A DNA stretch of 64,000 bases, taken from contig NZ_FTNR01000001.1 in NCBI RefSeq assembly GCF_900156475.1, positions 62,001-126,000 on the forward strand, read 5' to 3'. The position numbers and the translations under genes are program-made. The first letter of the stretch is position 1. Each line of letters begins with the position of its first letter. The stretch comes from Natronorubrum thiooxidans. GTDB lineage: Archaea; Halobacteriota; Halobacteria; Halobacteriales; Natrialbaceae. Positions 43,149 to 51,796 of the stretch are shown piece by piece. The notes beneath the pieces were generated by a model that was not told where the DNA came from, searched no databases, and worked only from the letters and a program-made list of their open reading frames with translations.

Positions 43149-46040
43149 TTACGCAGTGTTTGCCGGAACATCGAGTTCCTCGAAGAGGATCGTGAACAGC
43201 TTTCGCTGCACGATCCGGATGTGACGATAGAACGCGGCCGGCGAGATCTCGAGTGTCTCGGCGATAGCTTCGCCCGAGCGCTCCCGTGGCGATTCGAAGT
43301 AGCCGCCGTAGTAGGCCAGTTGGACGACCTCGAGTTGGCGGTCGGTGAGTCGCTCGAGCAGTTCGGCCCGGAGGTCGCGAGTGGTCGTTCGATCGACGCT
43401 GCGTTTTGCGTGGAGGGCGACGTCCGAAAAGGCGTTCGAGACGACGTCGATGCTCGCTCTGGCGTCGACAGTCCGTGGGACGTCGACGACGATCCGCGTC
43501 TGCTCCGGCGTCGCCTCGACGCTGTGTAACACGACGCCGTGGTCTGCAAGCTGCAGCGCCAGAAACGGCGACGAGAGCTCGAGCAGGACCGTTCCGTTCC
43601 CGCCGGGTTCGCCACCGCTGATCACCTGTGCGCGCTCGACGGCAACGAGTTCGGCGGTCGCGTCGACGACGGCGTCCGGATCGGCGTTTTCGACCGTCGC
43701 GAACACCGCAGCACCGTCTTCGTGGAGACGGACACCGCCGTCGAACGACAGGACACAGCCGACCGTCTGTGCAAGCCGGGAAAACACGAAACTGTCGTCG
43801 ACGACGTCGAACTCGATGCGCGTCCGGGAGTCGGTCAACAGCGCCTGTTTGCGTTCGACGGCGGCGATCGCGGCGGCGATCGTCTCACCGAGTTCCGCGA
43901 GGACGGCCCGCGTCACCTCGCCGAACGCGTCGGGCTGGTCGGCGTAGACGGTCAACACGCCGTAGGTGAACTCGTCGTACGCCAGCGGGACACTGGTGAT
44001 CGACTGGTACTCCCGCGCGAGGGCCTCGGAGCGCCAGAGCTCGTCGTGGAGCCGATCGACGACGTTCGAGACGACGGTCACGTCACGAGTCGTTGCCGTG
44101 AGCACTGCCGGCTCGCGTCCCTCCGCAAGCGACAGTGAGACGCTGTCGAGGTAATCCTGTCCGCGTCCCGTCCCGCAGTGTGCGTTCGGGACGAGCCGTT
44201 CGTCCGTCACGTCCACAGCGCCGATCCAGGCGAACGAAAACCGCTCGTCGGAGGTGAGCCGTTCGCAGACGGCCGCTTCGATCTCCTCGCGGGTTTCCGC
44301 CCGGACGAGTGCGGCGTCGATCTCGCGGATGATCTCGTTGATCTGGTTGAGTCGGGTGAGTTCCCGGTTCCGCCGTTTGAGTTCCCTGTCACGTTCACGG
44401 AGCGTTCGCTCCCGTTCGACCCGGTCGAGCGCCGCCGTTGCCGTCGTCGCCACCAGATCGGTCAGCTCTCGAGCGACGTCGTCGAACGCGTCGGACTGCG
44501 ACGAGCCGACGACGAACACGCCGTGGTCGCCGAGCGGGACGAACGCGCCGCTTCTGAGATCGGTCGTCGGATCCGAGAGCACGTCCGCGTCGTGGATATC
44601 CTCGAAAAAGCGAGACTGGCCCTCGACGAAGACCCCGCCTGCGATGCTGTCAGTGGTCGCCCGCCGCTGTGAGAGCGGCCCGTGAAGCCGTTTTAACCCT
44701 GGTGAGATCGCGGCCGGCCGAAGCACGTTCTCGTCGGTATCGAACAGGTGGGCCCCGCTCGCCTCGAGGTCGAGGATCTCGGGGGCGTCTTCGACGACGA
44801 TGTCGGCGATCTCGCGGTCAGTTTCGGCGTAGAGCAGTTTTTGCGTCGTTCGGTGCAGCGCTGTCAGCGCCTCCTCTCGGTGTTTGCGTGTCGTCACGTC
44901 CCGGCAGCTATAGAGGAGCGTGCCGTCCTGAATCGAGACCTCACGGACGTTGATGAGCAGCGTGTGCTCGCGACCCGCCCGATCGGTCGCCGTACACTCG
45001 ATGTTGGTCAACACGCCGTCGGCCTCGAGCACCTCGCGGTCGAACAGGTCCGACCCGAGGAGTTGGTCGATCGTCCCCATCTCGTGGATCTCCTCGTCCG
45101 TGTAGCCGAAAATGAAGTGGACGTTCGGACAGACGTAGGTAAACTCGCCTGCATCGTTCGTGATGAGGACGGTATCGGTCATGTTGTTCAGTGTTACCCG
45201 GTGCAGTTCCTCTGATTCGCGCAGTTCCTGTTCGAGGCGGACGCGCTCGGTGACGTCGCTCGCCCGTGCAAGTAGCGAGCCGACCGTTCCAGAGTCGTTG
45301 TAGACCGGCCGAATGGTCACCTCGAGCGTGTGTGGGTCGGTCGCCTCGCTGTCCTCGTCGGCGATCTGCGCTTGTGTCACTTCCCTGTGGACGACCTCGC
45401 CAGCGGCGGCCCGCTCGAGTGCCGCCTCGAGTACCGTTCGTCCCGCCTCGGCACACCGCCACCATGGGAGGTCGGCAAACGACTGCCCGCGGACAGCAGT
45501 CTCGGTCGCGTTGATCGCCTCGAGGGCGACCGCGTTGGCTCGGCGAACGCGTCCGTCGGGTGCCAGCACCCACGAATACGTCTCCGGATCATCGAAAACC
45601 GCACTGAACTGGCGCGACTGTGCGCGCCGTTCTCGTCGCTCCCGCCCTGTCTCGAGTGCGCGCTCGAGCGCTGCAATCAGGTCTGTGGCGCGTCGATCTT
45701 CGGGGACGTACTCCGTTACGCCCGCCGCGATCGCTGCACTCGCGAGCGTTTCGTCGCCATCACTGGGGGCGAGCACGACCGGACACTCCGGCTCGCGCTC
45801 GCGAACTCGCTCGAGGAGGTCGAGGCCGCGTGCGTCCGGGAGCTGGTGGAGCGACAAGATACAGTCGACTGGCCGGGCTGCGAGGATCTCGAGCGCCGTC
45901 TCGACGGTTGACGCCGTAAGCAGTTCGGCGTCGAATTCGCGCTCGGCGACAGTCGAGACTGGGTCGCCATCTTCGGCTGGGATCGTCTCGTCGGCGACGA
46001 CGAGGAGATGGGTGTCGTCGACGGTCCGTGCGGAAGCCAT
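43149..46040 (-). CDS. Large Bat-like sensor/regulator (receiver, PAS, GAF, HTH-10)
   Basis: A 963-residue regulator. It has an N-terminal receiver-like domain (~10-125), PAS domains (~140-390), GAF-like domains (~395-720), a bacterioopsin-activator N-terminal module and an HTH-10 at the C-terminus (LTDRQLEVVQLAYYGGYFESP, then GEAIAETLEISPAAFYRHI). The receiver reads DCILSLHQLPD where the phosphoacceptor Asp normally follows the Ser, so Leu replaces it, and the late Lys is absent. It probably senses redox or light and controls transcription. A second Bat-like gene lies at 48947. Confidence 0.88.
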   Translation of the reverse strand: MASARTVDDTHLLVVADETIPAEDGDPVSTVAEREFDAELLTASTVETALEILAARPVDCILSLHQLPDARGLDLLERVREREPECPVVLAPSDGDETLASAAIAAGVTEYVPEDRRATDLIAALERALETGRERRERRAQSRQFSAVFDDPETYSWVLAPDGRVRRANAVALEAINATETAVRGQSFADLPWWRCAEAGRTVLEAALERAAAGEVVHREVTQAQIADEDSEATDPHTLEVTIRPVYNDSGTVGSLLARASDVTERVRLEQELRESEELHRVTLNNMTDTVLITNDAGEFTYVCPNVHFIFGYTDEEIHEMGTIDQLLGSDLFDREVLEADGVLTNIECTATDRAGREHTLLINVREVSIQDGTLLYSCRDVTTRKHREEALTALHRTTQKLLYAETDREIADIVVEDAPEILDLEASGAHLFDTDENVLRPAAISPGLKRLHGPLSQRRATTDSIAGGVFVEGQSRFFEDIHDADVLSDPTTDLRSGAFVPLGDHGVFVVGSSQSDAFDDVARELTDLVATTATAALDRVERERTLRERDRELKRRNRELTRLNQINEIIREIDAALVRAETREEIEAAVCERLTSDERFSFAWIGAVDVTDERLVPNAHCGTGRGQDYLDSVSLSLAEGREPAVLTATTRDVTVVSNVVDRLHDELWRSEALAREYQSITSVPLAYDEFTYGVLTVYADQPDAFGEVTRAVLAELGETIAAAIAAVERKQALLTDSRTRIEFDVVDDSFVFSRLAQTVGCVLSFDGGVRLHEDGAAVFATVENADPDAVVDATAELVAVERAQVISGGEPGGNGTVLLELSSPFLALQLADHGVVLHSVEATPEQTRIVVDVPRTVDARASIDVVSNAFSDVALHAKRSVDRTTTRDLRAELLERLTDRQLEVVQLAYYGGYFESPRERSGEAIAETLEISPAAFYRHIRIVQRKLFTILFEELDVPANTA

Positions 46041-46674: not shown

Positions 46675-46863
46675 TTATCGACTCGTGATCACGTCTGTGC
46701 TGCCACATTCCGGACACTGTGTCATTCGTCCCAGTTTCGGGACCTCGATCCGTCCCCATGCGTCGTCACCGCCGGGGGCTTCGAATCCGCAGTTGCGACA
46801 TCGTGACTGGCCGAGACTGACTGATTCGGTCACCATACACCGATATATGTCAGTCAGTCCCAT
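46675..46863 (-). CDS. Small two-CxxC zinc-ribbon protein
   Basis: A protein of up to 62 residues with CRNC and CPEC pairs 27 residues apart, as in a zinc ribbon (SRCRNCGFEAPGG ... MTQCPECGSTDVITSR). The true start may be the in-frame ATG at 46836 (MVTESVSLGQ), which would give 53 residues; a clear box A is missing for both. It lies 52 bases from msrB and 46 bases from the next gene, all minus strand. Confidence 0.7.
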   Translation of the reverse strand: MGLTDIYRCMVTESVSLGQSRCRNCGFEAPGGDDAWGRIEVPKLGRMTQCPECGSTDVITSR

Positions 46864-48946: not shown

Positions 48947-50593
48947 ATGGACCACCGGCACGAACTCGCCGAAGCGACACTCGAGACGCTGCCGCTCACT
49001 GTTGCCGTCATCGATGCCGATGGCGAGATCCTGCTGACGAATCAGTCCTGGCGAGCGTTCGGCTCGGACGACCACCCGACGGATCACCTCGGCGTCGACT
49101 ACATCGCGACTGCCGCGATGGACGACGACGACCACGCCAGACGCGCCATCGACGGCCTCGAGGCCGTCATCGACGGCGAGCAGGAGACGTTTTCGATGGA
49201 GTACCCTTGCCACACGCCCGAACAAAAGCAGTGGTTCCTGATGCGGGCCAACCGGTTTACCGTCGATGGCGACGTCCGTGTCTCGGTCGTTCACCTCGAG
49301 ATCACCGACCGCAAGCTGGCAGAACTCGCCGTCGAGGAGACGACCGCGGAACTCCGCGAGGAACATCAAGCACTCGAGCACGTCCTCGAGCGTGTCGACG
49401 GGCTGCTTCGGGACGTCATCGACGCTGCCGTCGGCGCGGCCACACGCGACGAGATCGAACGGGGCGTGTGTACACGGCTCATCGAAACCGATCCCTACGT
49501 TCTCGCCTGGATCGGCCGAACCGACGTCACGAACAACCGCCTCGCGCCCCGCGAGTGGGCGAGCACGGATGACGTCCCGCTCGAGGATGGCGACCTCGTC
49601 CTCGGCTCGGACGACAGCCATCCGGCCGTCGAGGCACTCGAGACAGGGGAGCCACAGGTTATTCACGACCTCGAGACGTTCGCGGAGGCGGACCACTGGT
49701 GGCCAGCAGGCGCTGGCACGGCGTTTCAGTCGGTCGCGGCATTCCCGTTGACCTACGGCGACGTCACGTACGGCGTGCTCGTTCTCTTTGCCTCGGAGCC
49801 GAACGCCTTCGGCGAACGGGAGCGACTCGTCCTCGAGTCACTCGCGGAGACGATCGCAACCGCGATGAACGCGATCGAGGCCCGACAGATGCTCGCAAGC
49901 GATACCGTTGTCGAACTCGAGGTCGCGGTCGAAGACCCCTCGCTGTTCGTGACGATCCTTGCCGACGACCTCGAGGCGACGATCACCTATCGGGGACTGA
50001 CCTACGACAAGGATGGGGAACCGGTCGCGTTTTTCCACGCCGATCGCGCTCTCGAGAGCGTCCCCGAGGCGACCACGATCGACGGCGTGACCGACGTGAC
50101 GATCCTGTCGGCATCCGACGACGGAACGCTCCTCGAGGTCGCCGTTCGCGACAGCGTCGTGACGGCGCTGTCCGAACACGGGGCATCGATCCGCCGCTTC
50201 GACGCCAGTGTCTCGGCAGGGCATACGAACCACTCGACGGCCACCGGTGCGGTGGTCGCTGATCTCACCATCGACCTTCCGAACGGCCAGTCCGCCAGGT
50301 CGGCGTATGACCTGCTCGAGGGTCGCTATGACACCGTTGAACTGATTCGCTACCACGAGACGGACCACCCCACTGAGACGCCACAGAACCTGATGGGGCG
50401 GCTGGAATCGTCGCTGACCGACCGCCAACTCACCGCGCTCCGGACGGCCTACTACGCCGATTACTTCGAGTGGCCACGGAACGTCTCGGGCGAGGATCTC
50501 GCCCAGTCGATGGATATCTCTCGCTCGACGTTTCACCAGCACCTCCGAACCGCCCAGCGAAAGTTCCTCGACGAACTGTTTGCTGGCGACTGA
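48947..50593 (+). CDS. Bat-like regulator (PAS, GAF, HTH-10)
   Basis: A 548-residue protein. An N-terminal PAS (~10-125), GAF-like domain (~160-310), bacterioopsin-activator module (~320-460) and C-terminal HTH-10 (LTDRQLTALRTAYYADYFEWP and EDLAQSMDISRSTFHQHLRT) follow the order of Bat. No receiver domain is present. Bat in Halobacterium activates bop and crtB1 under low oxygen and light. The gene ends 253 bases before crtB, whose promoter carries a UAS match, so crtB is a likely target. A TATA-like gttatg lies about 30 bases upstream of the start. Confidence 0.88.
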   Translation: MDHRHELAEATLETLPLTVAVIDADGEILLTNQSWRAFGSDDHPTDHLGVDYIATAAMDDDDHARRAIDGLEAVIDGEQETFSMEYPCHTPEQKQWFLMRANRFTVDGDVRVSVVHLEITDRKLAELAVEETTAELREEHQALEHVLERVDGLLRDVIDAAVGAATRDEIERGVCTRLIETDPYVLAWIGRTDVTNNRLAPREWASTDDVPLEDGDLVLGSDDSHPAVEALETGEPQVIHDLETFAEADHWWPAGAGTAFQSVAAFPLTYGDVTYGVLVLFASEPNAFGERERLVLESLAETIATAMNAIEARQMLASDTVVELEVAVEDPSLFVTILADDLEATITYRGLTYDKDGEPVAFFHADRALESVPEATTIDGVTDVTILSASDDGTLLEVAVRDSVVTALSEHGASIRRFDASVSAGHTNHSTATGAVVADLTIDLPNGQSARSAYDLLEGRYDTVELIRYHETDHPTETPQNLMGRLESSLTDRQLTALRTAYYADYFEWPRNVSGEDLAQSMDISRSTFHQHLRTAQRKFLDELFAGD

Positions 50594-50761: not shown

Positions 50762-50776
50762 ACCCCACTAGTGAGG
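50762..50776 (+). promoter_or_regulatory. Bat-type UAS upstream of crtB
   Basis: ACCCCACTAGTGAGG matches the Halobacterium bop UAS consensus, as I recall it (ACCcnactagTTnGG), at every specified position except one (second T is G). It lies seven bases before the crtB TATA, the same relation as at bop. Confidence 0.7.
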
Positions 50777-50782
50777 GGGAGG

Positions 50783-50807
50783 TATTTTATACGTATCTGT
50801 CGTATAA
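50783..50807 (+). promoter_or_regulatory. crtB box A and overlapping inverted repeat
   Basis: tattttata (50783-50791) is the TATA element. TTATACG (50787-50793) and CGTATAA (50801-50807) form a perfect inverted repeat with a 7-base gap overlapping the TATA. A regulator bound here would block or aid TBP. Transcription would begin near 50815, giving a ~30-base leader. Confidence 0.65.
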
Positions 50808-50845
50808 ACGTCATCCCACCGCGGCCAGCGGGCACGAGGCTGAGA

Positions 50846-51796
50846 ATGCAACAGGAACACATCAACGCAGGCAAGTCGATCCAGAAGCAGACCGGGAAGA
50901 CGTTCTATCTCGCAACCAGATTCCTCCCGAAACGGGTTCGCCACGCCACGCACGTCCTCTATGCGTTCTTCCGGATCGCCGACGAGATCGTTGACGATGC
51001 AGCCGGCGTCCCCCCCGACCAACAACGGGCCGAACTCGAGTCGCTTCGCAAACAGGCCCTCGGCGAGACCGAACCGGACGGCCCGGTTCTCGTTGCGTTT
51101 AACGAACTCCGACAGGAGTACGACATCACTGCCGCCGAAATCAACGTCTTCATCGACGCGATGCAGTCGGATATCGACACCGACCGCTACGAGACGTATG
51201 CCGACCTCGAGTCGTATATGCGCGGCTCGGCCGCTGCTGTCGGCGTGATGATGACCGCGATCATGGACCCCGAAGACCGGGAGACGGCACTTCCACACGC
51301 CGTCAAACTCGGCGAAGCGTTCCAGATGTCCAACTTCCTGCGAGACGTTCGCGAGGACATCATCGAACGCGACCGGATCTACCTGCCACAAAAAACGCTT
51401 CGCACACACGGCGTCTCAGCCGAGCAGATCGAACGCCTCGAGTACTCTGAGTCGTTCGGACGGGCCATGGCTGCAGAGCTCAAGCGAACGGAGGACCTCT
51501 ACCGAGAGGGCGTCGCCGGCATCCGGTATCTCCCCGAAGACTGCCAACTCCCCGTCTTACTCGCAGCCGTCCTCTATGCGGAACATCATACCATCATCCG
51601 CAATCAGCAGTACGACGTCTTGAGTACCGAGCCGTCGCTCTCGACGGCCCGAAAGCTGTGGTGTCTCGCCAAGACCCGCTGGCATTGGCACTGGAACCGC
51701 GATCCCGAGGCCGTCTTCCAGCGAGTGTCTGCCGTGCCCGCCCTCGAGACGGATCGAAGCGAACCCGGACACGGCGGTCGCGTGCCGACACAGTAA
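50846..51796 (+). CDS. crtB: Phytoene synthase
   Basis: A 316-residue head-to-head prenyltransferase that joins two geranylgeranyl-PP into phytoene, the first step to bacterioruberin and retinal. Both Asp-rich motifs are present: ADEIVDD (near residue 46) and NFLRDVREDIIERDR (near residue 172), and the middle has SYMRGSAAAVGVMM. The start at 50846 is the family N-terminus (MQQEHINAGKSIQ). The upstream TATA and UAS tie it to the adjacent Bat-like gene. The C-terminus is extended and disordered. Confidence 0.94.
   Translation: MQQEHINAGKSIQKQTGKTFYLATRFLPKRVRHATHVLYAFFRIADEIVDDAAGVPPDQQRAELESLRKQALGETEPDGPVLVAFNELRQEYDITAAEINVFIDAMQSDIDTDRYETYADLESYMRGSAAAVGVMMTAIMDPEDRETALPHAVKLGEAFQMSNFLRDVREDIIERDRIYLPQKTLRTHGVSAEQIERLEYSESFGRAMAAELKRTEDLYREGVAGIRYLPEDCQLPVLLAAVLYAEHHTIIRNQQYDVLSTEPSLSTARKLWCLAKTRWHWHWNRDPEAVFQRVSAVPALETDRSEPGHGGRVPTQ

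Follow-up and report, generated by a model that had tools for sequence, protein, structure and literature searches.

The promoter of the phytoene synthase gene crtB in Natronorubrum thiooxidans contains a conserved element, ACCCCACTAGTGAGGG, at positions 50762–50777 (+ strand) of the 64 000 nucleotide stretch of DNA analysed here, which we refer to as the window. On the comparative evidence set out below we consider it probable (roughly 0.7) that this element is a crtB upstream activator site (UAS) bound by Bat-clade HTH_10 activators, namely a non-LOV Bat encoded beside crtB, an unlinked LOV-type Bat, or both. The arrangement would best be read as a variant of the known Bat/UAS system that is dedicated to crtB, with bacterioruberin and retinal synthesis as its outputs.

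Architecture and conservation of the crtB promoter

The crtB gene (50846–51796, + strand, ATG at 50846) encodes a protein of 316 aa with an SQS_PSY domain (E value 1.5e-69), and has 54 % identity to the crtB1 locus of Halobacterium salinarum. Upstream of it three conserved blocks, the UAS, a TATA box and ATCTGTCGTA, are held at constant spacing in 24 genera, the position matrix for these blocks having been built from 66 promoters. The UAS is an imperfect dyad, recognized from per-column information and from family-wide matches to a composite pattern (see below), and its right half, GTGAGGG, is its best-conserved part. The TATA box (TTTTATA, 50785–50791, + strand) follows seven bases 3' of GTGAGGG, and is separated by eight bases from the 15-mer ACCCCACTAGTGAGG (50762–50776, + strand). 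This 15-mer was pointed out in an earlier note on the same DNA, made from the sequence alone, and is found where that note placed it; it shows one mismatch to a putative bop UAS consensus, ACCCNACTAGTTNGG. The inverted repeat described together with it proved to be unconserved. The third element, ATCTGTCGTA (50795–50804, + strand), follows the TATA box and precedes the inferred transcription start, equals the UAS in conservation by per-column information and is retained in some promoters from which the UAS has been lost. Further downstream, a conserved CATCC (50812–50816, + strand) marks the putative start region, the start being placed by its distance from the TATA box, with a predicted leader of about 33 nt. 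A conserved RNA structure in this 5' leader was considered and rejected, as single-sequence folds disagree and RNAalifold returned no consensus structure.

The UAS-like sequence is real and not a chance occurrence. In the 4.2 Mb genome of the organism itself, ACYNNACTAGTNNGG occurs once, at the crtB site. Across 125 Natrialbaceae genomes the composite pattern CTNGTGAGG-N8-TTTTATA matched once in each of 40 genomes (40 matches in all), and comparison with crtB coordinates placed every match upstream of crtB at a distance of no more than about 120 bases; the reversed control pattern gave no match in the same 125 genomes. The proposal of a Bat-type UAS at a crtB promoter adjoining a Bat-clade gene is thus sustained by conservation throughout the family. 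The absence of the UAS from close relatives, which the earlier note had named as grounds for abandoning its proposal, was not observed, because the element is conserved family-wide. It is absent from the crtB promoters of Haloferax, Halorubrum and related genera (Haloferacales), where no Bat directly adjoins crtB.

Candidate regulators

The gene upstream of crtB (48947–50593, + strand) encodes a protein of 548 aa, which was described in the earlier note as a Bat-like PAS-GAF-HTH-10 protein, a description upheld by Pfam (N-terminal PAS_4, then GAF_2, BAT and a C-terminal HTH_10, the GAF-BAT-HTH_10 core matching above the cut-off), by phylogeny and by motif checks. Orthologues, defined by E values of up to 1e-120, are present in 62 of the 125 genomes as a single copy per genome, in every case near crtB and in none at another location, and form a single clade (support 100) in a quick tree of the GAF-BAT-HTH regions. 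This tree nests them, with an SH-aLRT of 100, in a group of 40 rows that includes H. salinarum Bat, to which the window protein is approximately 33 % identical, together with Bats adjoining crtB genes of a second type in other haloarchaea and one other paralogue from the same genome; 12 further paralogues from this genome fall outside the Bat group in the GAF-BAT-HTH tree. The LOV motif GxNCRFLQ, seen in sister Bats, is absent from the window protein and from the 18 orthologues checked, all of which have PAS_4 instead, and an EYPCHxP motif in the N-terminal PAS domain is invariant (19 of the 19 orthologues checked). Light sensing by this protein, one of the two functions suggested previously, is therefore unsupported; oxygen or redox sensing by this putative sensor is possible.

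In two genomes the bat match contains one TGA (G085:C50:42211-43809 and G075:C1:829373-830971), and these genes may be broken. The crtB gene may likewise be broken in G066, where it gives two matches (G066:C2:917123-918072), and in G057, where only a fragment was found (G057:C13:192666-192872). Further upstream in the window, on the minus strand, lies a gene for a 963 aa sensor-regulator (43149–46040) with receiver, PAS, GAF, BAT and HTH_10 domains; many relatives have a homologue of it 3.5–7 kb upstream of crtB. No small CPxCG-type (brz) ORF was found directly beside the window Bat gene; the nearest ORF of this type, a zinc-ribbon-like open stretch of 65 aa (CRNCG...CPECG), is at 46801 on the minus strand, a few kilobases upstream.

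The second Bat-group member of this genome is encoded elsewhere (G000:C41:58495-60408, equivalent to L313:7996-9909). It contains PAS, BAT and HTH_10 domains and an intact LOV motif, GRNCRFLQG, complete with the adduct cysteine, and is likely to be a blue-light sensor of the LOV photoreceptor type. Orthologues of this LOV-Bat are present in 97 of the 125 genomes, and the LOV motif was also seen in five of the seven further clade members checked. Just upstream of it, near L313:7825 on the minus strand, is a small zinc-finger-like ORF; in Halobacterium, small zinc-finger genes are found near Bat homologues (PMC3184054). The HTH domains of the crtB-linked Bat and the LOV-Bat are only 61 % identical, a value equalled by one other paralogue.

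Co-occurrence of the UAS with Bat-clade proteins

The UAS was scored in all crtB promoters fetched, with a cut-off of 8 (the 99.9 percentile of the null was 7.7). Scores above the cut-off were obtained at 54 of 57 loci with both regulators, at 37 of 42 with the LOV-Bat only, at six of ten with the crtB-linked Bat only (all four failures concern the second Natrialba crtB copy, which does not adjoin bat) and at two of 25 with neither. The UAS is therefore present at 97 of 109 loci with either paralogue compared with 2 of 25 with neither, a raw contrast that overstates the evidence because distant genera and crtB genes of the second type are among the latter loci. Among genomes lacking both regulators, the UAS has decayed while the TATA region is still recognizable in G051, G052, G057, G077 and G121 (an incomplete genome). 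In G006 both the UAS and the TATA box have been lost. Exceptions occur in both directions: G025 has an intact UAS and G003 a near-intact one (one core mismatch, shifted spacing) with neither regulator, and G095, G097 and G123 have the LOV-Bat and a weak or lost UAS. Independent pairs on the crtB tree (three agreeing, none opposing, three tied; p 0.25) were consistent with this association but did not reach significance, because there were too few independent events.

These data bear on the suggestion in the earlier note that the neighbouring Bat controls crtB. That gene is indeed of the Bat clade and linked to crtB, but it is not the only candidate, because the UAS is retained in most genomes that have the LOV-Bat but not this gene. 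No relocated orthologue of the crtB-linked Bat was found at E 1e-120 in the UAS-positive, Bat-negative genomes among the 125; these held only paralogues of 28–41 % identity and, in G048, a C-terminal remnant (63 %). It is tempting to speculate, though we do so tentatively and at somewhat less than even odds, that a single dedicated site is the common target of two Bat-clade paralogues, one crtB-linked with PAS_4 and GAF domains and the other an unlinked protein that is a true LOV photoreceptor, such that carotenoid synthesis would integrate light with a second signal and either protein alone could maintain the site.

As the genome contains 27 BAT-domain hits, another paralogue could bind the UAS. 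An explanation in which some other HTH_10 paralogue, or another conserved factor, occupies the site while the neighbouring bat gene is linked to it by descent only would accommodate the persistence of the UAS without an adjacent Bat in G005, G025, G027, G050 and G104. We regard it as unlikely, however, since orthologues of the window Bat are never found away from crtB and the UAS is missing from most loci that have neither Bat-clade protein. Moreover, Natrialba has two crtB copies, and the ACTAGT core is kept only in the copy beside bat (L108, L109, L113, L114, L400, L401).

Much less probable still is that the conserved block is simply core promoter, comprising an extended BRE-like region and initiator elements, with no dedicated regulator. 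The block does abut the TATA box at constant spacing, and the TATA box and CTGTCGTA are equally conserved, but the composite is found at no other promoter in the 125 genomes, decay of the UAS is not coupled to that of the TATA box, and the crtB promoters of the Haloferacales do without the element.

In 17 of the 41 bat-crtB loci examined, representing 11 genera (L054, L056-L060, L073, L087, L089, L090, L092-L094, L097, L103, L104 and L109), the UAS and the 3' end of bat overlap, the last codons typically reading DPTSEG-stop. Conservation of the UAS as coding sequence for the Bat C terminus is nevertheless highly improbable, and we rejected it as a coding by-product because its conservation persists without overlap: the UAS is similarly conserved in the 24 bat-linked loci that do not overlap, among them the window, in which 168 nt separate the end of bat from the UAS, and its right half is maintained in 25 loci that do not adjoin bat.

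Finally, the inverted repeat TTATACG-N7-CGTATAA (50787–50807), which overlaps the TATA box and was put forward in the earlier note as a second regulatory element, has perfect 7 bp arms but can be dismissed as an operator because it is unconserved, being complete in this genome only among 81 crtB loci compared, with arm columns close to zero across 24 genera (0.08 and 0.01 bits at 50792–50793 and 0.01 at 50806). Conservation within it is confined to the TATA box and CTGTCGTA (50797–50804), and the apparent palindrome is the TATA box plus this separately conserved element; no second exact match to the TATA box with CTGTCGTA was found elsewhere in the window.

Opsin and retinal genes and a proposed mechanism

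No opsin was found among the window genes examined, in agreement with the earlier note, but the organism is not opsin-free, as its genome contains two opsin genes. Downstream of one of these come a lycopene cyclase-like gene, whose Pfam match is weak and falls slightly short of the cut-off, and then a brp/blh-type beta-carotene dioxygenase gene (L004:9925-12891). It is probable that crtB supplies the synthesis of retinal as well as that of bacterioruberin. Neither opsin locus has a composite UAS-TATA site at the required spacing. A weaker UAS-like sequence (score 10.1) precedes the cyclase-like gene (L004:10972, minus strand), with no TATA box at the crtB spacing. Sharing of the UAS by opsin and retinal genes in the manner of a regulon was thus not seen, the strong composite occurring only at crtB in this genome.

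Our current working model is that the crtB-linked non-LOV Bat, the LOV-type Bat (G000:C41:58495-60408), or both would bind 50762–50777 and, positioned beside the TATA box at constant spacing, would recruit the basal machinery. The resulting increase in phytoene synthase would feed the synthesis of bacterioruberin and of retinal for the organism's own opsins. Control of bacterioruberin in haloarchaea is poorly known. The present system offers a cis-element dedicated to one gene and two named candidates for its activator, of which one is probably a LOV photoreceptor, while the losses seen across the family amount to a natural experiment; light control of archaeal carotenoids thereby becomes directly testable.

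Comparison with known systems

In Halobacterium, joint control of bop, brp, bat and crtB1 by Bat and a common UAS has been reported (PMC1502140, PMC1447603), and Brz also influences bop and crtB1 (PMC2253796). The window resembles this H. salinarum regulon in having a Bat-clade HTH_10 activator gene near crtB and a UAS beside the TATA box, crtB1 being a reported target (PMC1502140, PMC1447603, PMC2253796). It differs in that the site of the window type is found only at crtB and is absent from opsin promoters, in that the regulator has PAS_4 in place of the LOV-like domain, and in the lack of a brz-type gene directly adjacent to the regulator gene. A second point of comparison is the Halorubrum BAT-LOV* protein (Yee et al., 2015; PMC4682037), also a Bat-family protein with GAF and HTH domains, for which redox/light sensing has been proposed; its LOV-like domain lacks the cysteine, is flavin-binding and shows a response to reduction (PMC4682037), whereas the LOV motif is missing from the window protein and intact (GRNCRFLQG) in its unlinked paralogue.

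Pairs of a second-type crtB with a Bat-clade gene upstream are found in Halarchaeum, Haloarcula and other haloarchaea (L124-L129, L203-L208). They differ from the window in that crtB is in most cases about 50 % identical and Bat 32–44 % identical, Bat often contains a LOV domain and the promoter layout is different. In several of them ACTAGTTAGG or ACTGGTAAGG-like sites are present, and the related sites ACTAGTTAGG, ACTGGTAAGG and ACCAGTCAGG were observed in L124-L129 and L208, which suggests a wider Bat-site theme. A crtB-dedicated variant of the Bat/UAS system was not described in the literature searched, which covered few subscription journals. The Bat/UAS system itself is known; what is different here is its dedication to crtB, the non-LOV Bat paralogue and, possibly, the action of a LOV-Bat on the same site.
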